A DNA stretch of 64,000 nucleotides from Candidatus Methylopumilus universalis (GTDB lineage Bacteria; Pseudomonadota; Gammaproteobacteria; Burkholderiales; Methylophilaceae), in contig CAMCXI010000008.1 of assembly GCA_945883335.1 (NCBI GenBank), positions 1 through 64,000 of the forward strand. The letters are read 5' to 3'. The notes beneath the pieces are model-generated. The model made no database searches. It worked only from the letters and a program-made list of their open reading frames with translations, and was not told where the DNA came from. Below, in pieces: positions 164-61,140 of the stretch (positions are counted from its first letter, which is position 1; each line of letters begins with the position of its first letter). The position numbers and the translations under genes were made by a program.

Positions 164-1624
164 CTAAATTTCAAATAAGTTAACGAATTCGTGAACCGGT
201 GTCGCTTCCAATGTTTTTTGGTTTTCGCACACAGCCAAAATTGCCGCTTGTTGTTTGGCTGGGAAACGACGCGCCAAGTTGATTTTGAATTTTTTCACCA
301 ACTCAGGGATGCCTTCACCGCGACGGCGACGGTGCCCGATTGGATAATCAACAGCTACGTTCTCAGACTTAGAACCATCTTTGAAGAATACTTGGATGGC
401 ATTTGCAATAGAGCGTTTTTCAGGGTCTAAATAATCTTTGGTGTATTCGGCTTTTTCCACACATTGCATTTTGGCACGAAGCGCATCAATACGAGGGTCG
501 TTCGCAACATCATCTTCATAATCCGCTGCGGTGAGGTTGCCTTTCAATAAACCAATCGCACTCATGTATTGAATACAGTGGTCACGGTCAGCAGGATTCG
601 CTAATGGCCCAGTTTTATCGATGATGCGGATTGCTGATTCGTGCGTTGTAATCACAATTTTTTCAATTTGATCGATTTTTTCTAAGCTGTTAATGCGTTC
701 GCCGATTTGCGGATGAAGTGTCAATGCACATTCCACTGCAGTTTGTGCGTGGAACTCTGCTGGGAATGAAATTTTGAACAGCACTTGCTCCATCACATAG
801 CTACCGTATGGACGTTGGAATTTAAATGGCTGACCTTTGAATGACACGTCATAAAAGCCCCAAGTTTTTGCCGTAAGTGCTGATGGGTAACCCATTTCGC
901 CTTTCATCGCCATTAACGCTAAACGCACGGCACGGCTAGTTGCATCGCCTGCTGCCCATGATTTACGTGAGCCAGTATTTGGTGTGTGGCGATAGGTACG
1001 AAGCGCTTGACCATCGACCCATGCATTAGAAACGGCGTTAATGATTTCATCTTTAGTGCCGCCAAGTAAGCCTGTTACCACTGCAGTAGAGGCGACTTTA
1101 ACCAAAATCACGTGATCTAAACCAACGCGGTTAAAACTGTTCTCAAGTGCAAGTACACCTTGAATTTCATGAGCTTTAATCATGGCAGTAAGCACATCTT
1201 TAACAGTCAAAGCTGCTTTGCCTTGGGCAACACGAGTACGTGAAATCCAATCTGAAGTGGCTAGAATGCCGCCTAGATTGTCAGATGGATGACCCCACTC
1301 AGCCGCCAGCCAAGTATCGTTAAAGTCTAACCAACGAATCATGGCACCGATATTAAAGGCGGCTTGAATTGGATCAAGTTGAAACTGAGTGCCTGGCACT
1401 TTCGCGCCATTGGGGACTACTGTGCCGGGAACAATAGGCCCCATTAATTTGGTGCAAGCAGGGTAGGACAATGCTTCAAGGCCGCAACCCAAAGTATCCA
1501 TCAAGCAGTTCCGTGCAGTGTCATAAGCTTCTGCGCTATCAATTTTGTAGTTCAATACATAATCAGCAATATCGACTAAAACTTGGTCTGGTGCTGGGCG
1601 TACATTTGAAATATGAGATGACAT
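164..1624 (-). CDS. prpD: 2-methylcitrate dehydratase PrpD
   Basis: 486 aa, MmgE/PrpD family motifs ([38 protein letters not shown]); next to prpC and prpB. Confidence 0.95.
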
Positions 1625-1647
1625 GTTATTGCTTTCTTTTATATAAA

Positions 1648-2808
1648 TTAGCGTTTTTCGATAGGCAAGAATGGGCGGTCTTCAGGGCCGTTATATTCTG
1701 CGTTTGGTCGAATAATCTTGTTGTCTATGCGCTGCTCAATCACGTGCGCAGCCCAGCCAGTGGTACGTGAAATCACAAAGATGGGGGTGAACATGGCAGT
1801 TGGAACCCCCATCATGTGATAACTCGACGCACTGTACCAGTCGAGGTTCGGGAACATTTTCTTTTCGCGCCACATGGTTTGCTCAATGCGATCAGAAATG
1901 TTAAATAAATTCATGTTGTTGCCAGCCTCGCAAAGCTTGCGTGAGATTTCTTTAATCGCCACGTTCCGAGGATCTGAAATGGTGTAAACAGGGTGGCCAA
2001 AGCCAATGATGATTTCTTTAGCTGCCATACGACGCATGATGTCGGCTTCTGCTTCATCTGGCGTTTTGTAGCGCGCAATAATCTCCATCGCTACTTCATT
2101 TGCGCCGCCGTGTTTAGGGCCGCTAAGGGCGCCAATTGCGCCGCTGATGCTAGAGTAGATGTCAGCCAGCGTGCCTGAAATGACTCGGGCTGTGAATGTT
2201 GAAGCGTTAAATTCATGCTCTGCGTAAAGCACCAATGAGGTGTTCATGCAGGCTTCGTGTAAAGCAGATGGTTTTTTGCCGTGTAATAAATGCAAGAAAT
2301 GCGCCGCGATAGAGTGATCATCTGTCACGCAGTCGATACGTTTGTTGTTATGACTAAAGTGATACCAATAAAGCAAAACAGAGCCAAAGCAAGCAATCAA
2401 ACGGTCGGCAATATCTTTTGCGCCATTGATATTGTGATCCTCAGCCTCTTGTTCAAGTGTGCCAAGCATGGAGCAAGCTGTACGCATAACATCCATGGGG
2501 TGGGCGTCCGCTGGGATTTGCTCTAAAACGGTTTTGAGTGATTCGGGTAAATCACGAAGTTTTTTTAGTTTTGCGTGGTATGCGGCTAATTCTGCCTTGG
2601 TCGGCAAAGCACCATAAATTAATAAATAGGCGACTTCTTCAAAGGTCGCGTGTTTGGCTAATTCTAAAATGTCATAACCACGGTAATGCAAATCGTTGCC
2701 TGAGTGGCCGACAGTACAGATGGCTGAAATGCCTGCAACGACGCCAGAAAGAGCAACGCCTTTTTTACGTTTTGGCTCAGCAGGTGCTGGATTTGCATTG
2801 TTTGTCAT
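1648..2808 (-). CDS. prpC: 2-methylcitrate synthase PrpC
   Basis: 386 aa citrate synthase family ([43 protein letters not shown]-type C-terminus). Confidence 0.95.
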
Positions 2809-2886
2809 GACTGTTTCCTATCGTTATTTTTAACATAACTTTTGTTGAAATCACTAAAAGTGCGGTTAAGTTTTTTGTTTTAAGGG

Positions 2887-3765
2887 TTAGCTTTTATAAA
2901 GCTCATCAAGCTTCTGTTCGAAAGCGTGGTAGCCCAAATAATCGTAAAGCTCCATGCGGCTTTGCATTAGTGTCAAAACGTTCTTTTGGGTGCCCTCTTT
3001 GCGCACAGCTTCATAAACCTTAAGTGCCGCTTGGTTCATAGCGCGGAACGCTGAAAGTGGATAAAGCACCATACCTACATCTGCCGTGGCAAGCTCTTCT
3101 ACAGTAAATAGTGGCGTTGAGCCGAACTCAGTTATATTGGCAAGGACAGGTATTTTGACTGCGCTAGCAAACTGCTTGTACATGCTAAGTTCAGTCATTG
3201 CTTCTGGGAAAATCATGTCAGCACCTGCCTCAACACATGCACATGCGCGATCGATTGCTGATTGCAAACCCTCAACGGCAAGCGCGTCGGTACGTGCCAT
3301 GATGACAAAATCAGGATCGGTTTTCGCATCGACCGCTGCTTTAACGCGGTCAACCATTTCTTGTTGGCTTACCACAGCTTTATTAGGACGATGGCCACAG
3401 CGTTTTGCTTGCACTTGGTCTTCAATATGTACGGCTGCAGCCCCCATTTTGATCATTGACTTTACTGTGCGGGCAATGTTGAATGCACCGCCAAAGCCTG
3501 TGTCTATGTCTACGAGTAAGGGAACATCGGTTGCATCAGTAATGCGACGCACGTCTGTCATGACGTCATCCATCGTTGAGATGCCAAGGTCAGGCAAGCC
3601 AAGCGAACCAGCGGCAACGCCACCGCCAGAGAGGTAAAGTGCTTTGTAGCCTACTTGTTCAGCAAGTTTTGCATGGTAAGCGTTAATTGCGCCGATGATT
3701 TGCAAAGGTTTTTCTGCGGCGAGTGCGGCTCTAAATCTTGCGCCAGCTGATGTAAGGGTAGTCAT
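2887..3765 (-). CDS. prpB: Methylisocitrate lyase PrpB
   Basis: 292 aa, PEP mutase/ICL family, KRCGHRPNK motif and [22 protein letters not shown]. Confidence 0.95.
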
Positions 3766-3796
3766 GTTGTTGTCCTAGGTCTTGTGCAAATAGGTC

Positions 3797-4789
3797 TTAA
3801 GCGAAAAAAGCGTTTACAGCGTCGGCAGGAATGCTAATGCCACTGACTTTTGCTTTTTGTAATACTTCCCAGTAGTAGCGATAAGTAGCTCTGTCATGTA
3901 ATTCGCCTGCATGTTGAATTGGGCCCCATTCTGCTTTTTGTGCGGCAATCAAAATATCAGCAGCATCTTGTACTTCATCAAGATTAGGCTTCATTGCATC
4001 AACGATAGCTTGAATCTGAGTTGGGTAAATACTCCACATTCTCAAGAAGCCAAACTCTTGGCGAGCGCGTGTTGCATCGCTATTGGTTGCTATGGTGTTT
4101 TTCAAGTCGAGTGAAACGTTATGCGCTGGCACAATGCCGTGCATTAATGCGGCTGCAACGACTTCAGATTTTGCACGTGCAAGTAAGCGGTGCTCGAATT
4201 GGCCCGGACTTCGCATTGCAGATGCTGGAATTGCCCCGTGATGACCGCTCACAAAGTCCATGAGTCCGAAGTCTAAAACTTGAATCCAAGGCAAGGCGGC
4301 AATCTCGAATACTTCATGCAAAGCACCGTGTGTTTCAATCAATATATGGATAGGAATTTCGCGCTTAATGCCGTGCTCCTTACATTTGTTTTGAATGTAA
4401 GAAATCATCTCTTTTACTTGCGACGCATTAGTCGATTTAGGAATCGTGATGTAAGCCACGATATTGCCGATTCCTTCCACAAAAATATCGACATCTTGGC
4501 GCCAGGCAGGGTGAGTGTAATCGTGGATACGAACACCCGCCATTTTGTGTTTGTTTGCTTCAGATTGCTGAACGCGTACAATCATCTCTGCATGTTCGCG
4601 CTCTTGACCTGCGGCAGCGCCATCTTCACAGTCGCAAGTAATGTCAAAAATTGGACCTAGCTCATCTTGAATTTGTAATGCTTTTAAGATGAGTTTTTCG
4701 CTACCCGCAAAATGCTCGCAACTAGGAATCACTGGAAAGGCTCTTTCGCCTTTAAACAACGCGTCGTTTGGGTGGACTGGAGTATTCAA
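3797..4789 (-). CDS. HpcH/HpaI aldolase / CitE-like CoA-ester lyase (paralog 1)
   Basis: Motifs CDCEDGAAAGQE, IPIHILIETHGALHEVFEIAALPWIQVLDFGLMDFVSG. The ORF track starts at 4891, but AGGAAAAG followed by TTG at 4789 gives an RBS-supported start after the upstream gene's stop. Confidence 0.8.
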   Translation of the reverse strand: MNTPVHPNDALFKGERAFPVIPSCEHFAGSEKLILKALQIQDELGPIFDITCDCEDGAAAGQEREHAEMIVRVQQSEANKHKMAGVRIHDYTHPAWRQDVDIFVEGIGNIVAYITIPKSTNASQVKEMISYIQNKCKEHGIKREIPIHILIETHGALHEVFEIAALPWIQVLDFGLMDFVSGHHGAIPASAMRSPGQFEHRLLARAKSEVVAAALMHGIVPAHNVSLDLKNTIATNSDATRARQEFGFLRMWSIYPTQIQAIVDAMKPNLDEVQDAADILIAAQKAEWGPIQHAGELHDRATYRYYWEVLQKAKVSGISIPADAVNAFFA

Positions 4790-4817
4790 GAACTTTTCCT
4801 TTTTTCCAAAATTGCTT

Positions 4818-5894
4818 TTAAGATTTACGAGGCATGAGGACGGTATAGTCCAAATCCAATACCACATTAGGGTTGTAGCTGCGTTTCCCATCCGCCGTAC
4901 TTGAAGCTTCGGAGATGGATTGGAGTGGTGCGCCTTTTACGCCAATTAAACGTAAACGAAGGGCGCCCAAATCCTTGCGTCCTGGGATCTCAATGCGATC
5001 TAATACTTCGCTATGTGCGTAAATTGTGTCGCCGCCAAAGGTTGGATTGCAGTGCGTGCCGCCATTAATGGCGGCAATGCTCAGCGCGTTCTCCAAGCCC
5101 TCATAACTCAAAGCGCGGCACACAGACATGACGTGACCGCCGAATACTAGCCGTTTGTTGTAGGTTGATTTCGAAGCGTCAAAATGCAGGCGTGCAGGGT
5201 TTTGGTACAATTTAGTCGCTAAGGTGTGATCACTTTCATCAATCGTCATGCCAGATGGGTGTGCAATTTCTTCACCAATTTGGTAGTCTTCCCACAGGTG
5301 CGCGCTACCGGTCATTGTGGTATCAAAGCCGTTGTATTCAACATCAAGAGGAATGTCTAAATCTCCTGTTTGGACCACTGTGTCGAGTTTTGGCAATACT
5401 GTTTCAGGCGTTGGCGCATTAATATTACTTTTGCGAACCATCACCCAACGCACCCATGAAATCACTACTTGGTGGTCTTGGTTAATCGCTTCACATTGCA
5501 CATAAACAATGCCACTTTTACCGTCAGAGTTTTGTTTGAGGCCAACCACAGTAGATTTTGAGCTGATGGTATCGCCAGCATAAATAGGTCTCACGAATTT
5601 CACTTGTGCGTAGCCTAAGTTGGCAATCGCATTAATTGAAATGTCTGGCACAGTTTTACCAAGTGCCATATGGAAAGCGAGCAAATCATCAATCGTACGG
5701 TTCTTGTATCCCATCGCGTGGGCAACTGGTTGCGCGGAATGAATTACTTGGCGTGCGCCAGTGAGTGCAACATATAAAGCGCTATCACCTTCAGATATTG
5801 TGCGTGGTGTTGCATGATGAAAGATTTGCCCAATATGGAAGTCTTCAAAAAAATTGCCTCTTGGGCTTTTGTTTGTCGCGTTGCTGTTATGCAC
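4818..5894 (-). CDS. MaoC-like double hot-dog dehydratase, mesaconyl-CoA / methylmalyl-CoA hydratase-like
   Basis: 358 aa with two hot-dog halves (FEDFHIGQIFHHATPRTISEGDSALYVALTG ... WEDYQIGEEIAHPSGMTIDESDHTLATKLYQNPARLHFD). Confidence 0.75.
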   Translation of the reverse strand: MHNSNATNKSPRGNFFEDFHIGQIFHHATPRTISEGDSALYVALTGARQVIHSAQPVAHAMGYKNRTIDDLLAFHMALGKTVPDISINAIANLGYAQVKFVRPIYAGDTISSKSTVVGLKQNSDGKSGIVYVQCEAINQDHQVVISWVRWVMVRKSNINAPTPETVLPKLDTVVQTGDLDIPLDVEYNGFDTTMTGSAHLWEDYQIGEEIAHPSGMTIDESDHTLATKLYQNPARLHFDASKSTYNKRLVFGGHVMSVCRALSYEGLENALSIAAINGGTHCNPTFGGDTIYAHSEVLDRIEIPGRKDLGALRLRLIGVKGAPLQSISEASSTADGKRSYNPNVVLDLDYTVLMPRKS

Positions 5895-6783
5895 TCTCTG
5901 CCTCCAGTTTTTGGATCATTTCGCTGAGTATCAGCAAGCGCTTGGCTGCCTCAACTTGGTGTCTTTCTATAAGGCGGCCTTCAACCACTACGGTGCCTCG
6001 GCCAGCTGCATTGGCAGCCGCTAGCTCTGTAATTACTTCTTGTGCTAACTCAACTTCGGCCCGTTTGGGGGTGTAAGCATCGTTGCAGTAGTCCAACTGG
6101 AAAGGATGCACCAATGTTTTACCATCCAAACCTAAATCGCGCCCCATTCGGCATGCGTATTCGAATGAATGCATATCTTTTAAGTTGGTATTGATGCCAT
6201 CTACAATAGAACGACCATATGCGCGAGCTGCTAATTGCACCATTGATAAGCTGGTCAGAAGGGGGAGGCGCTCCAATGTAATGCGACCACGCAAATGTGA
6301 AAGCAGGTCTGAAGTGGCCATCACCATGCAAGCGATACGGTCTGAAGCACTGGCAATTTCTTCGGCATGCAACACTGCAAGCGGGCTTTCTATCATTACC
6401 ATAATTGGGATAGTCGTGTTGCCCGCATCTTTTAAAATATCAAGCACGGTTAACACGTCTTCTTGACTTTCGATATTTGGAAACAAAATAGCATCGGCGC
6501 CAATGTTAGCAACCGCGTAAATATCATCCTTGCCCCAAGGAGAATCAATGTCATTTACGCGAACGACAACTTCACGCGAACCAAAGCCACCTTCTTTAAC
6601 TGCCGCAACAACATTCTTACGCGCTTCTTCTTTTGCTTCGATCAGAATTGGATTGCCTAGATCGAGAATGACAGAGTCAACGATTAGCGAGCGCGATTTA
6701 TTGATATAGCGTGTATTGCACCCTGGCACATAAAGCATGGATCTGCGTGGTCGAAACAAATCGTTCATACATTCTCGATTCAA
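5887..6783 (-). CDS. CitE/malyl-CoA lyase-like protein (paralog 2)
   Basis: 298 aa; RRSMLYVPGCNTRYINKSRSLIVDSVILDLG, IMVMIESPLAVLHAEEIA, GKTLVHPFQ motifs of the CitE/HpcH family. Confidence 0.8.
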   Translation of the reverse strand: MNRECMNDLFRPRRSMLYVPGCNTRYINKSRSLIVDSVILDLGNPILIEAKEEARKNVVAAVKEGGFGSREVVVRVNDIDSPWGKDDIYAVANIGADAILFPNIESQEDVLTVLDILKDAGNTTIPIMVMIESPLAVLHAEEIASASDRIACMVMATSDLLSHLRGRITLERLPLLTSLSMVQLAARAYGRSIVDGINTNLKDMHSFEYACRMGRDLGLDGKTLVHPFQLDYCNDAYTPKRAEVELAQEVITELAAANAAGRGTVVVEGRLIERHQVEAAKRLLILSEMIQKLEAESA

Positions 6784-6892
6784 AAGTTATCTATATAGGA
6801 CTAGCGCTTTATTGATTCAAAAGCGCAAAAATACTTCCAGCTACGTGAAGTGATTCTATCCACAGGAAAAACGAAAGTCAATAAAAATATTT

Positions 6893-6910
6893 ATATCTTA
6901 TATAAGACAT
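6893..6910. promoter_or_regulatory. Candidate GntR-family operator: ATaTCTTATATAAGAcAT
   Basis: Perfect 12-bp palindrome TCTTATATAAGA at 6896-6907, plus two matching outer pairs, in the divergent intergenic region just upstream of a gntR gene. Confidence 0.6.
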
Positions 6911-6954
6911 AAAACTATAGACTTTTAATATTTCCTTGAGTTAAACTTGCGGTT

Positions 6955-7695
6955 ATGGTTACTAAAAATACATCAACAGTCCTTTTATATCAGCCACTCT
7001 ACGAGCAGATTAAGCGCATGCTAACGCAGAGCTTAATTGAGGGTGAATGGAGAGCCGGTGAAGTTATTCCTAGCGAAATGGAGTTGGCCGCACGTTTTAA
7101 AGTGAGCCAAGGGACCGTTAGAAAAGCCATTGATGAGTTGGTGTCGGAAAATATTTTGATGCGCCGACAAGGCAAGGGTACTTATGTTAGTACTCATAAT
7201 GAAAAAGGCATGCAACTTCGGTTTCTGCGCCTGACTGACGAGAGTGGTAACAAGGCGTTCCCAAAGAATACATTGCTTTCTTGTTCGCGCGGTAAAGCCA
7301 ACGCCAAGATTGCTAAGTCTTTAAATATTAAATCGGGTACTTCAATTATTGAAATTAAGCGTTTGCTTGGTTTTGAAGGCCGTCCTTTAATTCTTGATCA
7401 CATTATTGTGCCATCTGCTGAGTTTGCAGGTTTGGGGGCAAAGCAAATTGAAGAATATAAAGGTTCGCTCTACAGAATGTATGAGCAAGAGTACGACATC
7501 CGTATGGTCCGTGCTGAAGAAGATATCCGTGCCGTGGGTGCTGACGAAGAGGCGGCAGATGCATTGAATTTGGAAGAAGGTTCGCCTTTGTTAAGAATTG
7601 AGCGCATAGCTTTTACCTATGGCGATAGGCCTTTGGAGTGGCGCTTGGGTTTATGTTTGACAGACAACTTTCACTATCGAAACGAACTCGAGTAA
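6955..7695 (+). CDS. GntR family (FadR/HutC-type UTRA domain) transcriptional regulator
   Basis: 246 aa; wHTH PLYEQIKRMLTQSLIEGEWRAGEVIPSEMELAARFKVSQGTVRKAIDELVSENILMRRQGKGTYV with a UTRA-like C-terminal domain. Confidence 0.92.
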   Translation: MVTKNTSTVLLYQPLYEQIKRMLTQSLIEGEWRAGEVIPSEMELAARFKVSQGTVRKAIDELVSENILMRRQGKGTYVSTHNEKGMQLRFLRLTDESGNKAFPKNTLLSCSRGKANAKIAKSLNIKSGTSIIEIKRLLGFEGRPLILDHIIVPSAEFAGLGAKQIEEYKGSLYRMYEQEYDIRMVRAEEDIRAVGADEEAADALNLEEGSPLLRIERIAFTYGDRPLEWRLGLCLTDNFHYRNELE

Positions 7696-7753
7696 TTATA
7701 AAGTAGTAATTGAAAAGTTTTAATCACGAATTCATTTTTACAAAGTAGACATC

Positions 7754-8965
7754 ATGAGCGACTTAAAAACCAGAGCATTGCACTATCACCAGTTTCCTAA
7801 GCCGGGCAAGCTCTCGGTTGAGTCTTCAAAACCTTGTGCGACCCAAGCGGATTTGTCTTTGGCTTACACCCCAGGGGTGGCTGAGCCTGTGCGCGAAATT
7901 AATCGTGATCCTGAAAATGCTTACAAATATACCAATAAAGGTAATTTAGTGGCCGTGATTACTGACGGCACTGCAGTTCTAGGTCTAGGTAATATGGGTG
8001 CACTAGCCAGCAAGCCGGTGATGGAAGGTAAGGCGGTTTTGTTTAAACGCTTTGCCGACATTGATGTGTTTGATATCGAAGTAACAGCTCCAAGTGTTGA
8101 GGCTTTTATTGAAACGGTGGTGAATATCGCGCCAACTTTTGGTGGGATTAACTTGGAAGATATTGCCGCGCCTCACTGCTTCCGCATTGAAAAAGAGTTA
8201 CGTGAGCGTTTGGATATTCCAGTATTTCATGATGACCAACACGGTACTGCGGTAATTGTTGGTGCGGCTTTGCTTAATGCTTTGGCAGTGCAAGGTAAAA
8301 AGCTTGCGGATGCAAAAATTGTATTTTTAGGCGCTGGCGCCGCAGGCTGTGCTTGCGCCCGCTTACTCAAAGTGATGGGTGCGCAACATTTAGTGATGGT
8401 GGATAAATCTGGCGTGCTCAAAACAAGTCGTCCGGACTTACACGATATGAACCGTGATTTAGCCTCAAGCCGAGATCTAAACACCTTGGCTGAAGCCATG
8501 GTCGATGCGGATGTATTTATTGGGGTTTCTGCAGCCAATGCATTATCGCCAGATTTATTGAAAGTCATGGCGGCTAAGCCTGTGGTATTTGCTTTGGCAA
8601 ATCCAGACCCTGAAATCTTGCCTTCATTAGCGCATGCAGTAAGGGATGATATTTTGATGGCAACAGGCCGTTCTGATTTCCCCAATCAAGTAAACAATGC
8701 TTTGTGTTTTCCATATTTATTCCGCGGCGCTTTAGATGCACGGGCAAAACAAATCACCACTGCGATGCAAGTCGCTGCAGCGGAAGCCTTGGCTGAAATT
8801 GCGCGCGAACCAGTGCCGCAAGAAGTGCTAGATGCGTATCAGTTAACTCAGTTGTCTTTTGGTAAGGAATACATTATTCCAAAGCCTTTCGATCCTCGCT
8901 TGATGGCACGTGTATCTGGTCGTGTGGCTGACGCCGCCCGTATTGAAGCCGCCCGGGGAAAATAG
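7754..8965 (+). CDS. Malic enzyme (NAD(P)-dependent, short form without PTA domain)
   Basis: 403 aa; LSLAYTPGVAEPVREI, GNLVAVITDGTAVLGLGNMG, DDQHGTAVIV. Confidence 0.93.
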   Translation: MSDLKTRALHYHQFPKPGKLSVESSKPCATQADLSLAYTPGVAEPVREINRDPENAYKYTNKGNLVAVITDGTAVLGLGNMGALASKPVMEGKAVLFKRFADIDVFDIEVTAPSVEAFIETVVNIAPTFGGINLEDIAAPHCFRIEKELRERLDIPVFHDDQHGTAVIVGAALLNALAVQGKKLADAKIVFLGAGAAGCACARLLKVMGAQHLVMVDKSGVLKTSRPDLHDMNRDLASSRDLNTLAEAMVDADVFIGVSAANALSPDLLKVMAAKPVVFALANPDPEILPSLAHAVRDDILMATGRSDFPNQVNNALCFPYLFRGALDARAKQITTAMQVAAAEALAEIAREPVPQEVLDAYQLTQLSFGKEYIIPKPFDPRLMARVSGRVADAARIEAARGK

Positions 8966-8975
8966 GGAAAATGAC

Positions 8976-9374
8976 ATGAGCTCAATTTATCCAAAAGCAC
9001 CTAAAAGACAACGCCCAAAAAATCTGAATTTGCTGACGATACGTCTGCCGATTCCTGCTTTGGTGTCGATTATGCACCGTGTTAGCGGCGCGTTTTTATT
9101 TATGTTGTTGCCGGCTTTGTTGTGGCTGTTCCATCAGAGCTTAGCAAATGCTGAGGCCTACCAGTTGGCGCAACTAGTTCTCAATCATCAGCTTGCTAAG
9201 CTTATTTGCTTGGCAGTGACTTGGGCTTATTTGCATCATGCTTGTGCAGGCATTCGCCATTTGGCTTTGGATGCACATTATGGTTTGAGACTGAACTATG
9301 CCCGCGCGACTAGCCGTGCAGTGTTAATCATCAGTGGCTTGCTCACGTTAAGAATGGGAATCTGGCTATGGTAG
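8976..9374 (+). CDS. sdhC: Succinate dehydrogenase cytochrome b556 subunit
   Basis: RPKNLNLLTIRLPIPALVSIMHRVSGAFLF, HHACAGIRHL heme-binding region; start ATG at 8976 downstream of AGGGAAAA. Confidence 0.92.
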   Translation: MSSIYPKAPKRQRPKNLNLLTIRLPIPALVSIMHRVSGAFLFMLLPALLWLFHQSLANAEAYQLAQLVLNHQLAKLICLAVTWAYLHHACAGIRHLALDAHYGLRLNYARATSRAVLIISGLLTLRMGIWLW

Positions 9375-9715
9375 ATCGCAAAAAACCTGCTCACGGCTTT
9401 AGTGATTGGGCTTGGCAGCGGGCTACAGCCATCACTATGGTGATTTATAGCGTATTGCTGGCTGTTCGCTTTTTGGTGGATGCCCCAAGTGCTGGCTTTG
9501 AAGGTTGGCATGCGTGGTTTGCGCCAGTTTCATTTAGAGCGATTACGCTTCTGTTTTTATGGGCCCTGATTTATCACGCATGGCTTGGAATGAAAGAGAT
9601 TTTAATGGATTACGTTCACAACGTCGGTATTCGCGCAAAGTTGCAAAGCGTGTTTGGCTTGGTGTTGGTCGGTGATGCCGTTTGGGCAGCTTATATACTT
9701 TGGAGTCTAGTGTAA
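9368..9715 (+). CDS. sdhD: Succinate dehydrogenase membrane anchor subunit
   Basis: 115 aa, between sdhC and sdh[16 protein letters not shown]. Confidence 0.9.
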
Positions 9716-11466
9716 TGGCCTCAGCAATCGAGATTAGAAAATACGATGCCATCGTGATTGGTGGCGGTGGCGCAGGTTTGCGTGCGGCTTTGCAATTGGC
9801 CGATAGTGGCTTAAGTGTTGCAGTTCTTTCCAAAGTTTTCCCGACTCGTTCCCACACAGTGGCCGCGCAAGGGGGTATTGCAGCTTCACTTGGTAATGTG
9901 GGTGAAGATAATTGGCATTGGCACATGTACGACACCATCAAGGGCTCGGATTACTTGGGCGACCAAGATGCGATTGAGTTTATGTGCAAAAACGCGGCTG
10001 AAGCGATTTACGAGCTCGAGCATTTTGGCATGCCGTTTGATCGTTTAGAAAACGGCAAAATCTTTCAACGCCCATTTGGGGGTATGTCTAAGAAATATGG
10101 TGCGGAATCCGTTGCCCGCACTTGTGCAGTGGCTGATAGAACTGGTCATGCCATGCTTCACACGCTTTATCAGCGTAATGTTTACGCGAAAACAGACTTT
10201 CTGATCGAGTGGTTTGCGCTTGACTTAATTCGTGATGCTGAAGGCGATGTGTTAGGGGTGACAGCCATGGAAATTGAAACGGGTCAGATTTTTGCGCTCC
10301 ACGCGAAATCGACGATGTTTGCTACAGGCGGTGCCGGGCGAATTTTCCAAGCAAGCACCAATGCCTTTATTAACACGGGCGACGGCTTGGGTATGGCAGC
10401 ACGCGCTGGCGTGCCTTTGCAAGATATGGAGTTTTGGCAGTTTCACCCAACTGGTGTTGCCGGTGCCGGTGTGCTCATTACCGAAGGTGCGCGCGGTGAG
10501 GGTGGTTACTTGGTCAACTCACAAGGTGAGCGCTTTATGGAGCGCTATGCGCCAAATGCTAAAGATTTGGCTAGTCGTGATGTCGTTTCTCGTGCCATTG
10601 CCACAGAAGTGAAAGCTGGTCGCGGTGTAGGCATTGATGGTCAAGCAGTATTGCTAAAACTGGACCATTTGTCTGAAAAGGTTATTGATACTCGGCTACC
10701 TGGGATAAGAAATATTGCGATTAAGTTCGCTAATGTGGATCCTGTTCACTCGCCAATTCCTGTCGTGCCTACTGTGCACTACATGATGGGCGGTATTCCA
10801 ACGAATTTAAACGGTCAAGTCATCGATGATGACAAAGTGGTGAATGGTCTTTATGCAATTGGTGAATGTGCTTGCGTCTCAGTTCACGGGGCAAATCGTC
10901 TGGGGTCTAACTCATTGCTTGATTTAATGGTGTTCGGTAGTGCCGCTGGCAATCACACGGTGCAATCGCTTAAAGGCGTTAGCCACAAACCGCTACCAAC
11001 TGATTTTGCTGATCAAACACTCACTCGTTTAGATCGCTTGGATAATCAAAAATCCGGCGAGGTGGTGGCTGAAGTGGGAGATGCAATGCGCAGAACGATG
11101 CAAGTGCATTGTGGTGTATTTCGATTCCCAGATCTTATGTCAAAAGGGGTGCGCGAAATTATGCAAATTGAAGAGCGCATTAAGTCGCTTGAAATTAAAG
11201 ACAAAAGCAAAGTGTTCAACACCGCCCGTGTTGAAGCGCTTGAGCTTGAAAATCTTATCGAAGTGGCGAAAGCAACTATGGTGTCGGCAGAGGCAAGACA
11301 AGAAAGTCGGGGTGCGCATTGTCGCGAAGATTTCCCGGCGCGAGATGATGAGCAATGGCTCAAACACTCTCTGCATTACCGTGAAGGTAATCGCCTTGCT
11401 TACAAACCTGTGCGTTTAAAACCATTGACGGTTGATACGTTCCCGTTAATTGCTAGAACCTATTAA
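9715..11466 (+). CDS. sdhA: Succinate dehydrogenase flavoprotein subunit
   Basis: [49 protein letters not shown]; start ATG 9715 overlaps the sdhD stop. Confidence 0.97.
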
Positions 11467-11484
11467 TAAGGGGAAGAGACCATT

Positions 11485-12180
11485 ATGAAATTTTCTGTTT
11501 ATCGATTTAACCCCGATGTTGATAAAGATCCTTATATGCAGGAGTACGACATTGAGCTTGACCCCGACACGCGGATGTTGCTGGATGCACTTATTCAGAT
11601 TAAAGCCCTCGATGATACTTTGAGCATGCGTAAGTCTTGCCGAGAAGGGGTTTGCGGTTCAGATGCCATGAATATCAACGGCAAGAATGGCCTTGCCTGT
11701 ATGACGCCTTTAGAGGGTATTAAAGAGCCCGTTGTATTGAGACCACTGCCAGGCTTGCCCGTGGTGCGTGATTTGGTGGTAGATATGGAGCAGTTTTTTG
11801 CGCATTACAACTCCATTAAGCCTTACTTAATTAACAACGACCCGCCACCTGCGACTGAGCGTTTGCAGTCGCCAGAAGATAGAGCAAAGTTGGATGGGCT
11901 TTATGAATGTATTTTGTGCGGAGCATGCACGGCAGCTTGCCCTTCATTCTGGTGGAATCCGGATAAGTTCGTTGGCCCAGCAGGGTTGATGCAAGCTTAT
12001 CGTTTTATTTCGGATAGTCGTGACCAGGCGCAAGAAGAGCGTTTAGAAAATCTTGAAGATCCCTATCGTTTGTATCGTTGCCACAACATCATGAATTGCG
12101 TGGATGTATGTCCTAAAGGCTTGAATCCATCAAAAGCGATTAATGAAATCAAAGCGCTGAAAGTGAAGCAAAAGTTTTAA
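11485..12180 (+). CDS. sdhB: Succinate dehydrogenase iron-sulfur subunit
   Basis: SCREGVCGSDAMNINGKNGLAC and CILCGACTAACPSFWW / CHNIMNCVDVCPKGLNP clusters. Confidence 0.97.
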   Translation: MKFSVYRFNPDVDKDPYMQEYDIELDPDTRMLLDALIQIKALDDTLSMRKSCREGVCGSDAMNINGKNGLACMTPLEGIKEPVVLRPLPGLPVVRDLVVDMEQFFAHYNSIKPYLINNDPPPATERLQSPEDRAKLDGLYECILCGACTAACPSFWWNPDKFVGPAGLMQAYRFISDSRDQAQEERLENLEDPYRLYRCHNIMNCVDVCPKGLNPSKAINEIKALKVKQKF

Positions 12181-12449
12181 TGATCGCTAACATACAAACA
12201 ATAGATTCTAACGACGCAGCGTTAAGGCGCATGGAGTGGCGTTGTCGGCGAGGGATGTTAGAGATGGATTTGTTGTTTGTTGATTTTGTGAGTCGCTATT
12301 TACCAAGTTTGAACGGAGCTCAAATTTCAGCCTTGGATAAATTGCTAGATTTGCCTGATAACCAACTTTGGAATTTGGTTTCTGAAGGTGAGGAAGTTGA
12401 TGATTTGGCAACGGCGCAAGTGTTAACGATGTTGCGCAGGAAGCAGTAA
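12180..12449 (+). CDS. sdhE: Succinate dehydrogenase assembly factor SdhE (YgfY/CptB family)
   Basis: 89 aa; MEWRCRRGMLEMDLLF RGxxE-type motif; overlaps the sdhB stop. Confidence 0.93.
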   Translation: MIANIQTIDSNDAALRRMEWRCRRGMLEMDLLFVDFVSRYLPSLNGAQISALDKLLDLPDNQLWNLVSEGEEVDDLATAQVLTMLRRKQ

Positions 12450-12500
12450 AGTAAAAAAACGGATAGATCTTTTTTAATCCCATTTAATAGGGAAAGTACG

Positions 12501-13658
12501 ATGAGCCAAGACCATACCTACAATTCAGACCCATATGCGAACGCGGACTATTGCCGTGTCGTATCGCCACATGTGTTGGGTGATTATTGGCCGGGCATTC
12601 AGCTTTACTATCCGCCGGTTAAATACTCGCCAGCGCAGGGCATTTATGAGGATTTAGAAGCCGCCTCGAAACGCATGAAAAAACATGCACTGAATACCCA
12701 TGCGCATACCTTAATTTTTGACTTGGAAGATGGTTGTCGTCAAAAAGAAATGAGTCGTGAATTGCTGAGAAATGAATTGCCAGTATTTATGACGAGCAAT
12801 AAAAAAGTGTCGATTGCGGTGCGTATCAATCCATTTAGAACCGAAGAATACGAGCGCGACATTGCTTTTGTGCGTGATATGGCGGATGTGATTGATGTGG
12901 TGATGCTCGCGAAGGCTGGCGAGGCTTATGGTGCAGCGGAAGTGCGCGATTTGTCTAATTTGCTAGCGGGCTGGAATGACAAAATTACTATTCAGCCAAT
13001 TATTGAGCATCCTAAATCGCTCAAAATTGCGCATGAGTTGATGCAGTACTCTACAGTTAAACATGTCGTTTTTGGTATTCATGACTTCTCAAAGGCGATG
13101 GGTATTCACATTACACCGGAGCACTGGACTGAAGAACTGAAGTACTTTATGAATCAACTCATGTTTGAAGCACGTATTGCGGGTAAAGGTGTGATTGGTG
13201 GTGTGGAAACCTTAATCGGTTCAAGCAGTATGCCAGAGAAATTCCTAGAGCCACATGATGTGCGTCGTTGGTTAGATTTGCATGGCGAAAATGAATCTCG
13301 CATTGTTTACAAGCATGCCTGCCAAGAAGCTGCGATGGGCTTAACCGGTAAGCAAGTCATTCATCCTGCGCATATTCATTTATGTAAGGTGGCCTATACC
13401 CCATCACCCACTGAGATTACGCAAAAAATCAAAATCCTAAAAGCGGCGATTGAGGCAGATGCTTTACTTGGCGGTGCGATTAAATTTGAAGGTGAAATGC
13501 TCGATCCGCCGATGTTTGGTAAGGCTTTGCAAACACTGTTACGTGCTAATGCTTTACGTGCATTAGGCCCAGAAGATACCAAGTTTGCGCTGACTGTGAT
13601 GCAGATGTTGCCAACACAAGTGATTAGTCAAAACTGGCCATACGGCTTAATTTTATAA
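12501..13658 (+). CDS. HpcH/HpaI aldolase / CitE-like CoA-ester lyase (paralog 3, about 385 aa)
   Basis: LIFDLEDGCRQKEMSR, ITIQPIIEHPKSLKIAHELM, GKQVIHPAHIHLCKVAYTPS motifs. Confidence 0.8.
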   Translation: MSQDHTYNSDPYANADYCRVVSPHVLGDYWPGIQLYYPPVKYSPAQGIYEDLEAASKRMKKHALNTHAHTLIFDLEDGCRQKEMSRELLRNELPVFMTSNKKVSIAVRINPFRTEEYERDIAFVRDMADVIDVVMLAKAGEAYGAAEVRDLSNLLAGWNDKITIQPIIEHPKSLKIAHELMQYSTVKHVVFGIHDFSKAMGIHITPEHWTEELKYFMNQLMFEARIAGKGVIGGVETLIGSSSMPEKFLEPHDVRRWLDLHGENESRIVYKHACQEAAMGLTGKQVIHPAHIHLCKVAYTPSPTEITQKIKILKAAIEADALLGGAIKFEGEMLDPPMFGKALQTLLRANALRALGPEDTKFALTVMQMLPTQVISQNWPYGLIL

Positions 13659-13696
13659 GCGCATATTTAGATCGAATATTAAGAGGGAGTTTTTAA

Positions 13697-15343
13697 ATGT
13701 CAGCAACGACTTCACAAGCGCCATTTGTCCCATTTGAAAAATGGGTATGGCAAGTGCCATCGCATTTCAATATTGGTGTGGCTTGCACGGATATCCATCT
13801 TGGCACGCCTACTGAATCTGCGATTGCGATGATTGTTGAAGATGACACGCTAGGTACTTCTGAAATTACTTTCGCGGGCTTATCCAAACGTACACATCAG
13901 TTTGCACAGCTATTGAGAAATATTGGCGTAGCGGCGGGTGAGCGTGTGCTTATTCGTTTGCCAAACAGCTTGGATTATCCAACAGCTTTTTTAGGCGCAA
14001 TGAAGCGCGGCGCGATTTCAGTGCCTACTTCTACTTTACTCACAGCGGATGAAGTCGTGTATTTAGCTAAAGACTCTGGTGCGCGAGTCTTGGTGACCGA
14101 TAAAGCCGCTTGGAAAACGCTACGCGAAGGCTTAAATGGGGTGGGTGGTTTAACCCATGTGTTGCTTTCTGGAGAGGGTGAATGTCTCCCTGCTGATGGT
14201 TTGCAAGTTCTGGATTTAACTTCTAGTTTAGAAGCGATTACTAGTTGGGATGCGCCGCATCAAACCAAGTCAGATGATCCTGCTTATTTGGTGTATACCT
14301 CGGGCACCACAGGTTATCCAAAAGGCGTGTTGCACGCTCACCGCTCAATGATAGGCCGTCAACCAGCCTCTAAATACTGGTTTGACTTCAGTCCTAATGG
14401 CGACCGCATTATGCACTCAGGTAAGTTTAATTGGACTTACGTGCTCGGCACTGGTTTGATGGACCCGCTATATCAAGGTAAAACGGTGATTGTGCATGAA
14501 GGTAAAAACGATGCGAATACTTGGCCGCGTTTGATCCAAAAACATCAAGCGACTATTTTTATTGGTGTGCCGACAATTTACCGTCAAATTTTGCAAAAGA
14601 CGGAATTTGTGCAAAAAGATTTACCTAGCTTGCGCTATTGTATGAGTGCTGGCGAGCACTTGTCTGACGAGGTCTTGGCGCAGTGGCATGAGCGCTTCGG
14701 TATTGATATTTACGAGGCGGTGGGTATGTCTGAGTTTTCATATTATTTATGTGAAACCAAATCGCGCGCAATTCGTCCGGGTTCGGCAGGTTTTGCACAG
14801 CCAGGTCACGATATTGCTTTGCTTGACCCAGAAACATTACAGCCTGTGCCGCAAGGTGAAGAGGGCGTGATTAGCGTTCCAGACAACGATCCTGGTTTGT
14901 TTATCAATTATTGGAATCAGCCAGAAGAAACGGCGAAACATAAACATGATGGCTGGTTTATTACAGGCGACTTTGCCCGTATGGATGCCGATGGATACAT
15001 TTGGTTTTTAGGCCGCAAAGACGACATTATTAAAAGCTTTGGCTTCCGTGTTTCACCTTATGAAGTCGAGCGTGTATTGAAGTCGCATCCTGAGGTTGCA
15101 GATTGTGCTTCTGTGGCAGAAACCATCGAAAAAGATAAAGTATTGGTGGTAGCCTATATCATTCTGCAAGCGGGTAGCACGGCTAAAGCTGATGATTTAT
15201 ATGCATTTGGTAAAAAGCATTTGGCGGCATACAAGGCGCCAAAAGTGGTTTATATTACTGATCAATTTCCACGCACCAAGAACGGCAAAATTTTACGCCG
15301 TGATGTGAACCCAGCTATTGCATTGAGCAGATCGAATACATGA
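13697..15343 (+). CDS. AMP-forming acyl-CoA synthetase
   Basis: 548 aa ANL family; AYLVYTSGTTGYPKGVLHAH, WFITGDFARMDADGYIWFLGRKDDIIKSFGFRVSPYEVE, PRTKNGKILRR. Confidence 0.9.
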   Translation: MSATTSQAPFVPFEKWVWQVPSHFNIGVACTDIHLGTPTESAIAMIVEDDTLGTSEITFAGLSKRTHQFAQLLRNIGVAAGERVLIRLPNSLDYPTAFLGAMKRGAISVPTSTLLTADEVVYLAKDSGARVLVTDKAAWKTLREGLNGVGGLTHVLLSGEGECLPADGLQVLDLTSSLEAITSWDAPHQTKSDDPAYLVYTSGTTGYPKGVLHAHRSMIGRQPASKYWFDFSPNGDRIMHSGKFNWTYVLGTGLMDPLYQGKTVIVHEGKNDANTWPRLIQKHQATIFIGVPTIYRQILQKTEFVQKDLPSLRYCMSAGEHLSDEVLAQWHERFGIDIYEAVGMSEFSYYLCETKSRAIRPGSAGFAQPGHDIALLDPETLQPVPQGEEGVISVPDNDPGLFINYWNQPEETAKHKHDGWFITGDFARMDADGYIWFLGRKDDIIKSFGFRVSPYEVERVLKSHPEVADCASVAETIEKDKVLVVAYIILQAGSTAKADDLYAFGKKHLAAYKAPKVVYITDQFPRTKNGKILRRDVNPAIALSRSNT

Positions 15344-16863
15344 GTCTAAATAAGCCCACCATTAATAAAATAGACTTTGTTGCAAGTGTCGCTGACGCTT
15401 TGCAATTCATGTCTTATTACCACCCTGTGGATTTCATTCGAGCGTTAGGCGATGCCTATGAAATTGAAGAGTCTCCAGCAGCAAAAGATGCAATTGCGCA
15501 GATTTTAACAAACTCTCGCATGTGCGCTGAAGGAAAGCGTCCTATCTGCCAAGATACAGGTATTGTGGTGGCGTTTATCAATGTTGGAACAGATGTGCAA
15601 TGGGAGCAAGGTGCGGATGTTGAAGCCTGGGTGAATGAAGGTGTGCGACAGGCTTATCTATTACCCGAAAACCCCCTTAGAGCCTCAATTGTGGCTGATC
15701 CAGCAGGTAAGCGTGCCAATACCAAAGACAATACGCCAGCCGTTGTGCATGTGCGCTTGGTGCCGGGCAACACGGTGGAAGTAAATATCGCCGCTAAAGG
15801 TGGCGGCTCTGAGAACAAAGCAACACTGGCAATGCTTAATCCATCTGACAGTATTGTAGATTGGATTTTGAGTGTGGTGCAGGACATGGGCGCTGGATGG
15901 TGTCCGCCAGGTGTATTGGGTGTTGGCATTGGCGGGACAGCTGAAAAAGCCGTGCTACTGGCTAAAGAGTCGCTCATGCAACCACTCGATTTAGCGGCTT
16001 TGCGAAAGCGTGGAGCAAGTAATCGCATTGAAGAGTTGCGTTTAGAAATTGCAGACAAAGTGAATGCTTTGGGAATAGGTGCGCAAGGCTTAGGCGGCTT
16101 AACCACGCTGCTCGATGTGAAGATTTTAGATTATCCAACTCATGCGGCATCATTGCCTGTTGCGGTCATTCCTAATTGTGCTGCGACGCGCCATGCGCAT
16201 TTTGTATTAAATGGTTCTGGTGCTGCTAAACAAACGCCACCTAACCTCAATGATTGGCCTAAGGTCACTTGGGCACCTAATCAGGATTCACGCCGCGTAG
16301 ACCTTAATAAGATTACTTCCACAGATGTACAAACCTGGCAACCAGGCGAGACATTACTTTTAAGTGGTAAGTTGCTCACGGGTCGTGATGCCGCACATAA
16401 GCGTATTTCAGAGATTCTAGCGCGGGGTGAATCATTGCCTGAAGGCGTTGATTTCACTAATCGCTTTATTTATTACGTAGGCCCAGTTGATCCTGTGCGC
16501 GGCGAGGCCGTTGGTCCAGCAGGGCCAACTACCGCAACGAGGATGGATAAATTCACCGACATGATGTTGGATAAAACAGGTTTGCTCGGCATGGTGGGTA
16601 AGGCGGAGCGTGGTGAAGAGACTATTGCGTCTATTAAAAAACATCATTCAGTGTATTTAATTGCAGTGGGTGGCGCAGCTTATTTGGTATCTCAATCTAT
16701 TCAATCAGCGAGTGTTGTTGCCTTTGCAGATTTAGGCATGGAAGCCATTTATGAGTTTGATGTAAAAGATATGCCAGTGACAGTTGCAGTAGATGCCAAA
16801 GGTACTTCAGTACATCTGACAGGTCCAGCAAAGTGGCAGAAGTTATTGGCTAAGAGGGATTGA
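15340..16863 (+). CDS. Class I fumarate hydratase
   Basis: 507 aa; RPICQDTGIVVAFINVG, KGGGSENKA, GIGGTAEKAVLLAKESL, GPAGPTTATRMDKF. Confidence 0.93.
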   Translation: MSLNKPTINKIDFVASVADALQFMSYYHPVDFIRALGDAYEIEESPAAKDAIAQILTNSRMCAEGKRPICQDTGIVVAFINVGTDVQWEQGADVEAWVNEGVRQAYLLPENPLRASIVADPAGKRANTKDNTPAVVHVRLVPGNTVEVNIAAKGGGSENKATLAMLNPSDSIVDWILSVVQDMGAGWCPPGVLGVGIGGTAEKAVLLAKESLMQPLDLAALRKRGASNRIEELRLEIADKVNALGIGAQGLGGLTTLLDVKILDYPTHAASLPVAVIPNCAATRHAHFVLNGSGAAKQTPPNLNDWPKVTWAPNQDSRRVDLNKITSTDVQTWQPGETLLLSGKLLTGRDAAHKRISEILARGESLPEGVDFTNRFIYYVGPVDPVRGEAVGPAGPTTATRMDKFTDMMLDKTGLLGMVGKAERGEETIASIKKHHSVYLIAVGGAAYLVSQSIQSASVVAFADLGMEAIYEFDVKDMPVTVAVDAKGTSVHLTGPAKWQKLLAKRD

Positions 16864-16883
16864 GAATACCTGAAGGTATTCTC
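16862..16883. terminator. Compact inverted repeat between two convergent stop codons
   Basis: GAGAATACCT-GA-AGGTATTCTC, perfect 10-bp arms overlapping the fumarase stop and abutting the stop of the opposing ORF. Confidence 0.5.
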
Positions 16884-60316: not shown

Positions 60317-60388
60317 TCGACAAATAATAAAATGAGTTTAACCCATTTTAATTGGCTTGATATTGATAAGAGAAATGTCGATTAAAAC

Positions 60389-60900
60389 TTACTTTAGGTA
60401 CTTTTCTTCAAACAGATCAATATTAAGTGCTTTGTCATACAAATACCCTTGCCCGTAGTTGCATTCAAATGCTTGCAACCAATCGGCGTCTTTCTGAAGT
60501 TCAACACCCTCAGCAATCGTTTTAATTCCAAGCGTAGAAGATAGTTTAGTAATGGCTGAAACAATCGTTTGAGATTTGTTATTGTTAGTGACATCAACTA
60601 CAAAAGTCCTATCAATTTTGAGAACATCGATAGGGAGTTTGTGTATGTAGCCCATCTATGAATAACCTGTTCCAAAAGCATCAATGCCGATTTGAAAGCC
60701 TACTTTTTTTAAGCTTTTCAAACTTAGTGAACGTTTCGTTAGTGGAATCCAGCATGACACTCTCGGTGAATTCAAGCAGTATTTTATGGGCGTTAATTTG
60801 AAAAGTTTGTAGCATGATAATCATGCTGTCAACAAAGTCATCTTTTGCAAATTGCTTGACAGAAATATTGACTGACAAATAACAATTAATTGAATGGGTT
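60389..60900 (-). pseudogene. Decayed EAL-domain (c-di-GMP phosphodiesterase) gene
   Basis: SVNISVKQFAKDDFVDSMIIMLQTFQINAHKILLEFTESVML...FEKLKK / frameshift / [37 protein letters not shown]...IKTIAEGVELQKDADWL; A-run frameshift at 60704-60710 and amber at 60656-60658. Confidence 0.88.
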
Positions 60901-61140
60901 TTTTTGATTAAGTAATACAGAATTTAACAGAATAGTTATATTTTTTACATGCGCCACCAAATCGCAGTTCTGTTGAGTGACAATATTGGTCACCTCGTTA
61001 TTTTTTTCGATTGTTTGAGGATAATATTTACTCTTCATAAAACGATTTGATTGGGCGATATTCATCCCAATTTCGGGTAAAATATCGTCTTTATTAATTC
61101 TGCTTCTCAGTCCATGTACCCATCTATGCCAAGTTTGCCT

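Follow-up and report, generated by a model that had tools for sequence, protein, structure and literature searches.

A methylcitrate cycle-linked gene cluster of Candidatus Methylopumilus universalis predicted to degrade mesaconyl-CoA to propionyl-CoA and glyoxylate

Introduction

What would a protein resembling mesaconyl-coenzyme A (CoA) hydratase do among the methylcitrate cycle (MCC) genes of a methylotroph? This question is raised by a gene cluster of Candidatus Methylopumilus universalis (Methylophilaceae), which is found in a 64,000-nucleotide stretch of DNA (positions 1 to 64,000 of contig CAMCXI010000008.1, assembly GCA_945883335.1), referred to as the window in this study. In this cluster, the MaoC gene mch is located between the CitE-like genes lyA and lyB and next to prpB, prpC and prpD. 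The best explanation for this arrangement, in which we have moderate confidence from gene families and gene context, is that the cluster is a co-regulated unit that would degrade mesaconyl-CoA to propionyl-CoA and glyoxylate, both of which would be used.

The cluster is the same as the published MCC cluster of Methylophilaceae, which contains prpCBD, cyl1, maoC, cyl2, gntR, mdh, sdhABCD, cyl3, prpE, fum and can (PMC4109929). In Methylotenera, its role and metabolite were reported as unknown despite its strong in situ expression (PMC3728764). In the available parts of these two reports, no reaction is assigned to cyl1, maoC, cyl2 or cyl3, and the ligase gene is named prpE. Different from these accounts, our analysis gives a candidate step for each gene. 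Strong induction of the cluster, either in natural waters or by dissolved organic matter, has been reported for Methylotenera and the marine relative OM43 (PMC3728764, PMC5120137). In OM43, MCC genes rise on dissolved organic matter together with the gene pair NB46_00665/00666, which encodes a HpcH/HpaI aldolase and a CoA ligase (PMC5120137) and, by annotation and gene order, is probably lyC-acs. A candidate substrate, mesaconyl-CoA, and a candidate role for each gene reduce the question of this cluster to a few direct assays.

The MaoC protein and its neighbors

The initial annotation placed a double hot-dog MaoC protein resembling mesaconyl-CoA hydratase between two CitE/malyl-CoA-lyase-like genes in the same operon as prpBCD, and this linkage was confirmed. 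The open reading frame (ORF) list and profile searches revealed the order prpD, prpC, prpB, lyA, mch and lyB, all on the - strand, and PrpB, PrpC and PrpD, which make up the methylcitrate cycle set, all scored above their NCBIfam equivalog cut-offs:

164..1624, - strand: prpD, 2-methylcitrate dehydratase (NF006943, 911 bits, cut-off 575; TIGR02330, 881 bits, cut-off 458)
1648..2808, - strand: prpC, 2-methylcitrate synthase (NF009006, 677 bits, cut-off 550)
2887..3765, - strand: prpB, methylisocitrate lyase (TIGR02317, 432 bits, cut-off 354)
3797..4789, - strand: lyA (cyl1 in the literature), CitE-like C-C lyase, candidate beta-methylmalyl-CoA lyase (PF03328; 3qqw, 525 bits)
4818..5894, - strand: mch, double hot-dog MaoC protein, predicted mesaconyl-C1-CoA hydratase (4E3E, 403 bits; 8HGN, 348 bits)
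5887..6783, - strand: lyB (cyl2 in the literature), CitE-like protein, predicted malyl-CoA-thioesterase type (lid Asp replaced by Glu/Gln)

The longest ORF of lyA spans 3797-4891 and begins with an ATG at 4891. The TTG at 4789, which is behind the ribosome-binding site AGGAAAAG and shortly past the mch stop, is the preferred start. Given that lyA most likely starts at this TTG, the listed overlap of lyA and mch is an artefact. The start of lyB is either a TTG (6783) or an ATG at 6768.

The resemblance of the MaoC protein to mesaconyl-CoA hydratase also held. In phmmer searches against the PDB, Mch matched over its full length the structures 4E3E of Chloroflexus (403 bits, E 7e-120) and 8HGN of Methylorubrum (348 bits, E 3e-103), and the next structure scored 46 bits. 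Mch was 53.0% identical to 4E3E, 46.9% to 8HGN and 26.6% to Rv0216; the identity between 4E3E and 8HGN was 61.0%. 8HGN is the mesaconyl-CoA hydratase MeaC, and Caur_0173 of Chloroflexus is cited with it as a characterised enzyme (PMC10164722); 4E3E is presumably Caur_0173. In a tree whose root serves for drawing only, every relative of Mch grouped with 4E3E and 8HGN, with Rv0216 apart. Within the limits of the references at hand, the sequence comparisons thus support the placement of Mch in the group of mesaconyl-C1-CoA hydratases, distinct from the crotonyl- or acyl-ACP-type hydratases, which is the placement that the initial annotation had suggested to examine.

Of the malate-pocket residues scored (F71, S79, N85, R142, N226, H231, Y248 and G249), six of eight were identical in Mch, including the catalytic Asn226/His231 pair. 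The remaining two, F71L and Y248F, were found in the window's own lineage and were missing from most orthologues sharing the gene order. With 126 bits against a RipB cut-off of 340, Mch was below the equivalog level of itaconate degradation.

CitE-like proteins

The CitE superfamily has six conserved catalytic residues, and Glu replaces the lid Asp only in the malyl-CoA thioesterase group (PMC3832036, Zarzycki and Kerfeld). We classified the CitE-like proteins, which include LyC of the divergent arm described below, by their patterns at E44, D45, R76, E141, D168 and the lid residue D299 (R. sphaeroides numbering). Among 77 LyA orthologues, the D, R, E and D following E44 were found in 77, E44 in 76 (one was unreadable) and the lid Asp in 76 (one had a gap). 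The catalytic residues were found in all 60 LyC orthologues with no substitution, although one R76 letter was unreadable. By residue pattern, LyA and LyC are predicted to be catalytically intact CitE-like lyases.

LyB did not show the residue pattern of C-C lyases. The lid Asp299 was found in none of its 76 orthologues, of which 71 had Glu and 5 had Gln, and E44 and D45 were variable. The lid residue was Asp in each of the five PDB relatives with which LyB was aligned. Moreover, LyB shared 40% identity with a Glu-type CitE protein of Ruegeria, whose gene is beside mch and sdh. Because of the lid Glu and this Glu-type relative, LyB is predicted to be a malyl-CoA-thioesterase-type enzyme and probably not a second lyase, the comparison being made via the Ruegeria protein rather than the characterised R. 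sphaeroides sequence. Thus, of the two genes initially described as CitE/malyl-CoA-lyase-like, lyA keeps the catalytic set, whereas lyB has the lid residue of the thioesterase type. The scores of LyA, LyB and LyC (50, 108 and 50 bits, respectively) were below the RipC cut-off of 375 and hence below the level of itaconate degradation.

The LyB relatives with a lid Gln (L067, L073, L053, L065 and L080) have DLHES, DLYES or DLHEA replacing DLED, and the lyA genes of these loci are on the opposite strand.

Linkage of mch with prpD and a probable operator

Among 187 genomes of the family, 117 carried mch or prpD. Both genes were found in 108 of these carriers, whereas 6 contained mch without prpD and 3 contained prpD without mch; the other 70 genomes had neither gene. 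Wherever the two genes were on the same contig, the distance between them was <5 kb (98/98 pairs). Although these genomes share ancestry and the counts do not represent 187 independent events, the linkage is far beyond chance, and the two genes are gained or lost as a pair.

The cluster is larger than positions 3797-6783, to which the initial annotation referred. Its 15 genes occupy positions 164-16863 and are distributed over the two strands. While the linkage with prpBCD stood, the divergent arm with lyC, a CoA ligase gene and a class I fumarase gene, which offers a source of mesaconyl-CoA, had been missed. From a 171-bp divergent region, this + strand arm runs in the order gntR, malic enzyme, sdhCDAB, lyC, acs and class I fumarase:

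6896..6907, no strand assigned: palindrome TCTTATATAAGA in the region of the divergent promoters, probable GntR operator (conservation, shuffle test)
6955..7695, + strand: gntR, GntR/UTRA regulator (PF00392, 80 bits; PF07702, 116 bits)
7754..8965, + strand: malic enzyme, short form (NF009501, 521 bits, profile positions 8-401 of 764)
8910-9374, 9368-9715, 9682-11466 and 11485-12180, + strand: sdhC, sdhD, sdhA and sdhB, respectively (translations read; synteny; matches of sdhA and sdhB annotated in Ruegeria)
12501..13658, + strand: lyC (cyl3), third CitE-like C-C lyase, candidate (S)-citramalyl-CoA or malyl-CoA lyase (PF03328, PF15617)
13697..15343, + strand: acs (prpE of the literature), AMP-forming acyl-CoA ligase, candidate mesaconate-CoA ligase (NCBIfam and PDB matches)
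15340..16863, + strand: class I fumarase, candidate mesaconase and fumarase (PF05681, 324 bits; PF05683, 285 bits)
16862..16883, + strand: hairpin at the fumarase gene end, possible terminator (9-bp stem; such matches did not exceed their frequency in shuffled sequence)

TCTTATATAAGA was the sole match in the window and had no match in 100 shuffles. It was present with <=2 mismatches in 45 of 45 gntR-lyB spacers and occurred in two copies where gntR and lyB had moved apart (L034, L039 and L061). It is a probable GntR operator, and both arms of the cluster are probably one co-regulated unit. The gene order and the operator were also kept in four stretches of streamlined, single-contig genomes of 1.3 Mb, in which sdhD, too short and diverged, was not matched.

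Propionate activation and metabolic background

The best NCBIfam matches of Acs were benzoate- and medium-chain-like ligases, and its nearest PDB structures were aryl-, acetyl- and medium-chain ligases. TIGR02316, the PrpE model, was not among the 25 NCBIfam matches listed for Acs. In the window's genome, the best TIGR02316 match reached 574 bits (cut-off 827), and curated PrpE above the cut-off was found in none of the eight methylotroph genomes. PrpE above the cut-off was found in 7 of 10 autotroph-type genomes (G008-G017); its gene shared a contig with prpB and prpD in five of them (G010, G012, G013, G014 and G015) and was on another contig in G009 and G011. A feed of mesaconyl-CoA would explain the presence of a propionate pathway in organisms without the usual propionate-activating enzyme.

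Neither malate synthase (PF01274) nor full-length isocitrate lyase was found in any of the 18 module-bearing genomes, and removal of glyoxylate by malate synthase was therefore set aside. The E1 component of 2-oxoglutarate dehydrogenase was found in none of the eight methylotroph genomes. The CaiB/BaiF CoA transferase family (PF02515) was found neither in the window's genome nor in 16 of 19 others (17 of 20 in total). The mutase family PF01642 was likewise found neither in the window's genome nor in 12 of 17 others; crotonyl-CoA carboxylase/reductase was not searched for. Given that PF01642 was not found, the window's genome should have neither an ethylmalonyl-CoA mutase nor a methylmalonyl-CoA route.

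Proposed pathway

The best-supported reading of these results is that mesaconyl-CoA is converted to propionyl-CoA and glyoxylate and that PrpC takes the propionyl-CoA, as the initial annotation had put forward. Mch, LyA, the gene context and the lack of curated PrpE in the eight methylotroph genomes speak for it; we infer from the gene content all substrates, the reaction direction, the upstream source of mesaconate and the removal of glyoxylate as malate. Mch would convert mesaconyl-C1-CoA to beta-methylmalyl-CoA, which LyA would cleave to propionyl-CoA and glyoxylate. PrpC, PrpD and PrpB, together with an aconitase encoded elsewhere, would convert propionyl-CoA and oxaloacetate to pyruvate and succinate. 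Succinate dehydrogenase, fumarase and the malate oxidation of the cell would then regenerate oxaloacetate, and malic enzyme would yield pyruvate. LyA or LyC may condense glyoxylate with acetyl-CoA to malyl-CoA, and LyB may hydrolyse malyl-CoA to malate, which would replace the missing malate synthase. Upstream, the class I fumarase may convert (S)-citramalate to mesaconate, an activity that is known for class I fumarases (PMC4682846), and Acs may activate mesaconate to mesaconyl-CoA.

The same genes may also form an (S)-citramalate cycle that is closed by methylcitrate, an extension that we regard as tentative and rather unlikely. In combination with a malyl-CoA lyase and a thioesterase, this cycle would take the place of the glyoxylate cycle in bacteria that have neither isocitrate lyase nor malate synthase. 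In such a cycle, LyC and LyB would make (S)-citramalate from acetyl-CoA and pyruvate, which fumarase would convert to mesaconate and Acs to mesaconyl-CoA. Mch and LyA would release glyoxylate and propionyl-CoA, and PrpCBD, succinate dehydrogenase and fumarase would return pyruvate and oxaloacetate. The steps balance to acetyl-CoA + 2 H2O -> glyoxylate + CoA + 4[H] (ATP for the ligase not counted), and candidates by family were found for each step except aconitase and malate oxidation. If true, this cycle would be a further route of acetyl-CoA assimilation besides the glyoxylate, ethylmalonyl-CoA and methylaspartate routes, would provide genes for the long-proposed, unassigned citramalate cycle, and would account for a possible use of C2 and C5 acids by these methylotrophs, in which isocitrate lyase, malate synthase and 2-oxoglutarate dehydrogenase are missing. 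Two other connections were set aside. A feed of (R)-citramalate via a CimA-type enzyme was rejected because the fumarase/mesaconase takes the (S) form (PMC8307300, PMC4682846), and a C1-to-C4 transfer based on Mct was rejected because PF02515 was not found in the window's genome.

Several points weigh against degradation of mesaconyl-CoA by the cluster. The functions of the cluster enzymes are predictions from sequence and gene context, and mesaconate is a candidate substrate of Acs. Two of the eight pocket residues of Mch are changed (F71L and Y248F). The nearest structures of LyA (3qqw) are without known function, and LyA is only remotely related to proven malyl-CoA lyases (51 bits to 4L9Y). 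The activity of LyB is uncertain because its Mg-water ligands E44 and D45 vary. Moreover, AcsA-type synthetases, with 503-602 bits to PrpE in seven of the eight methylotroph genomes, could activate propionate, and no C5 dicarboxylate transporter was found in the cluster. Finally, the genes are also compatible with the opposite direction, from propionyl-CoA and glyoxylate to acetyl-CoA and pyruvate, which was favored for Arcobacter (PMC2147049).

The module in other bacteria

In Thiobacillus, Gallionellaceae, Hydrogenophilus and their relatives, the genes were found in the order fum, lyC, acs, lyB, mch and lyA at loci without prp genes. The arrangement (fum)-lyC-acs-lyB-mch-lyA was observed in sulfur, iron and hydrogen oxidisers (L041, L043, L050, L060, L064, L066, L072 and L076), none of which had prp at the locus, and RuBisCO was found in all six genomes searched for these eight loci. 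All ten autotroph-type genomes contained RuBisCO, 2-oxoglutarate dehydrogenase E1 and a PrpB-like sequence, and seven of them contained PrpD (TIGR02330). Most RuBisCO-bearing module genomes also encode a strong glycolate-oxidase-like GlcD. This six-gene module is possibly a route for glyoxylate or acetate in these autotrophs.

The mch-lyA pair also recurred without prp genes in Cupriavidus and Sphingobium. In C. oxalaticus (L084), its neighbors encode an acyl-CoA dehydrogenase, MmgE/PrpD and, in addition, a CoA transferase. In C. metallidurans and Cupriavidus EM10, some neighboring ORFs were annotated with Pfam. An acyl-CoA dehydrogenase gene and an MmgE/PrpD ORF were near mch-lyA of C. metallidurans, and no CoA transferase was identified among the ORFs scanned there. 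In Cupriavidus EM10, which was without lyA, a CoA transferase gene was directly before mch and a TctC receptor gene after it. In Sphingobium (L085), mch-lyA was beside a gene annotated as alpha-methylacyl-CoA racemase, which is CoA-transferase-like. The mch-lyA loci of Cupriavidus (L084 and L086) and Sphingobium (L085) resemble a C1-ester variant of the methylsuccinate cluster and speak for the cleavage direction. Separately, mch of a Terriglobia metagenome-assembled genome (L081) was 70% identical to the Chloroflexus enzyme and adjoined sdh genes.

Alternative explanations

If the enzymes run in the opposite direction, the cluster would assimilate glyoxylate and propionyl-CoA, with acetyl-CoA and pyruvate as the products, which is similar to the second cycle of the 3-hydroxypropionate bicycle. 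LyB would then hydrolyse mesaconyl-CoA, fumarase would make citramalate, Acs would activate citramalate and LyC would cleave citramalyl-CoA, with fumarase and the CoA ligase in the roles of Mct (CoA transferase) and Meh (C4 hydratase). These enzymes are reversible, and this direction is as compatible with the gene set as cleavage is. It was proposed for AB1917-AB1921 of Arcobacter butzleri (PMC2147049). It is also consistent with the module lying apart from prpBCD in genomes with RuBisCO, the majority of which have a GlcD-like source of glyoxylate, and with the result that 17 of 20 genomes had no match to PF02515, the family of Mct-type CoA transferases. A point against it is that, in Methylophilaceae, prpBCD adjoins the module and probably shares its regulation, and the enzymes encoded by prpBCD consume propionyl-CoA, for which no source is obvious in the cell. 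In addition, mch-lyA of Cupriavidus is found in apparent degradation clusters; because this set resembles the methylsuccinate/itaconate cluster (PMC12290011), cleavage of the C5 CoA ester is favored. We thus consider the reverse direction conceivable but unlikely.

It is improbable that the cluster is an ordinary propionate-oxidation operon, in which Acs would be a propionyl-CoA synthetase and Mch, LyA, LyB and LyC would handle a minor side substrate. prpBCD is indeed canonical, and the ligase gene is called prpE in the available part of the published annotation (PMC4109929). PrpE, however, is not among the matches listed for Acs, and lyB-mch-lyA is kept with prpBCD even in streamlined genomes of 1.3 Mb. 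Moreover, the six-gene module has no prp genes in its vicinity in autotrophs whose prp genes form a locus elsewhere, in many cases together with a PrpE gene. It is still less probable that fumaryl-CoA/malyl-CoA, a longer 2-alkyl homologue or a similar CoA pair is the substrate of Mch and LyA, which would then yield acetyl-CoA or another acyl-CoA and glyoxylate. CitE-like lyases are promiscuous (PMC3832036), and F71L and Y248F in the window's lineage could be read as a shift of the pocket, but both changes are conservative and are missing from most orthologues with the same gene order, and the linkage with PrpC argues for propionyl-CoA as the product.

Comparison with known systems

The general idea of such a pathway has a precedent, given that a module linking glyoxylate and propionyl-CoA with pyruvate and acetyl-CoA was proposed in 2007 for AB1917-AB1921 of Arcobacter butzleri (PMC2147049). 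Both this proposal and the published MCC cluster (PMC3728764, PMC4109929) were missed by the initial annotation. Similar to the window cluster, the Arcobacter module contains CitE, CoA ligase, enoyl-CoA hydratase, CitE and class I fumarase. Different from it, the ligase and CitE are fused, the MCC genes are elsewhere and of the AcnD/PrpF type, and the authors favored the opposite direction. As far as the available part of that report goes, no enzyme test of the proposal is described.

Similar to the lower half of the ethylmalonyl-CoA pathway, the cluster combines Mch, a CitE-like lyase and a thioesterase-type CitE protein, and Ruegeria TM1040 likewise has mch and sdh side by side with the gene for a Glu-type CitE protein. 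Different from that pathway, PF01642 was not found in the window's genome and propionyl-CoA would go to PrpC instead. In the citramalate cycle that was proposed for Rhodospirillum rubrum (Ivanovsky 1997), whose key enzymes and enantiomer are not settled (reviewed in PMC8307300), acetyl-CoA and pyruvate are likewise converted via citramalate, mesaconate, mesaconyl-CoA and methylmalyl-CoA to glyoxylate and propionyl-CoA, which leads back to pyruvate. The window cluster by itself could encode almost all of the steps; in it, a CoA ligase would replace the CoA transferase, and methylcitrate would replace the closure via methylmalonyl-CoA.

The itaconate/methylsuccinate cluster of Pseudomonas and Cupriavidus (PMC12290011) also comprises CoA activation, a hydratase and a CitE-like lyase. 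It differs in using mesaconyl-C4-CoA and in cleaving citramalyl-CoA to acetyl-CoA and pyruvate, and the window's proteins scored below the RipB and RipC cut-offs. In the C. oxalaticus relative, mch-lyA stands where the genes for itaconyl-CoA hydratase and citramalyl-CoA lyase sit in that cluster. The publications consulted describe neither such a pathway for the cluster of Methylophilaceae nor the assignment of LyB to the thioesterases, the lack of PrpE, the operator or the module of autotrophs.

Other features of the window

The malic enzyme (7754-8965) matches only the first half of the 764-residue model of NADP malic enzyme and is without the C-terminal half. Outside the cluster, a region of ~2.9 kb (60317-63206) has no ORF of at least 150 amino acid residues and no Rfam match. 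The host Methylophilaceae genome is 1.6 Mb, and its hydratase region shares 92% identity with records of uncultured Methylophilaceae.

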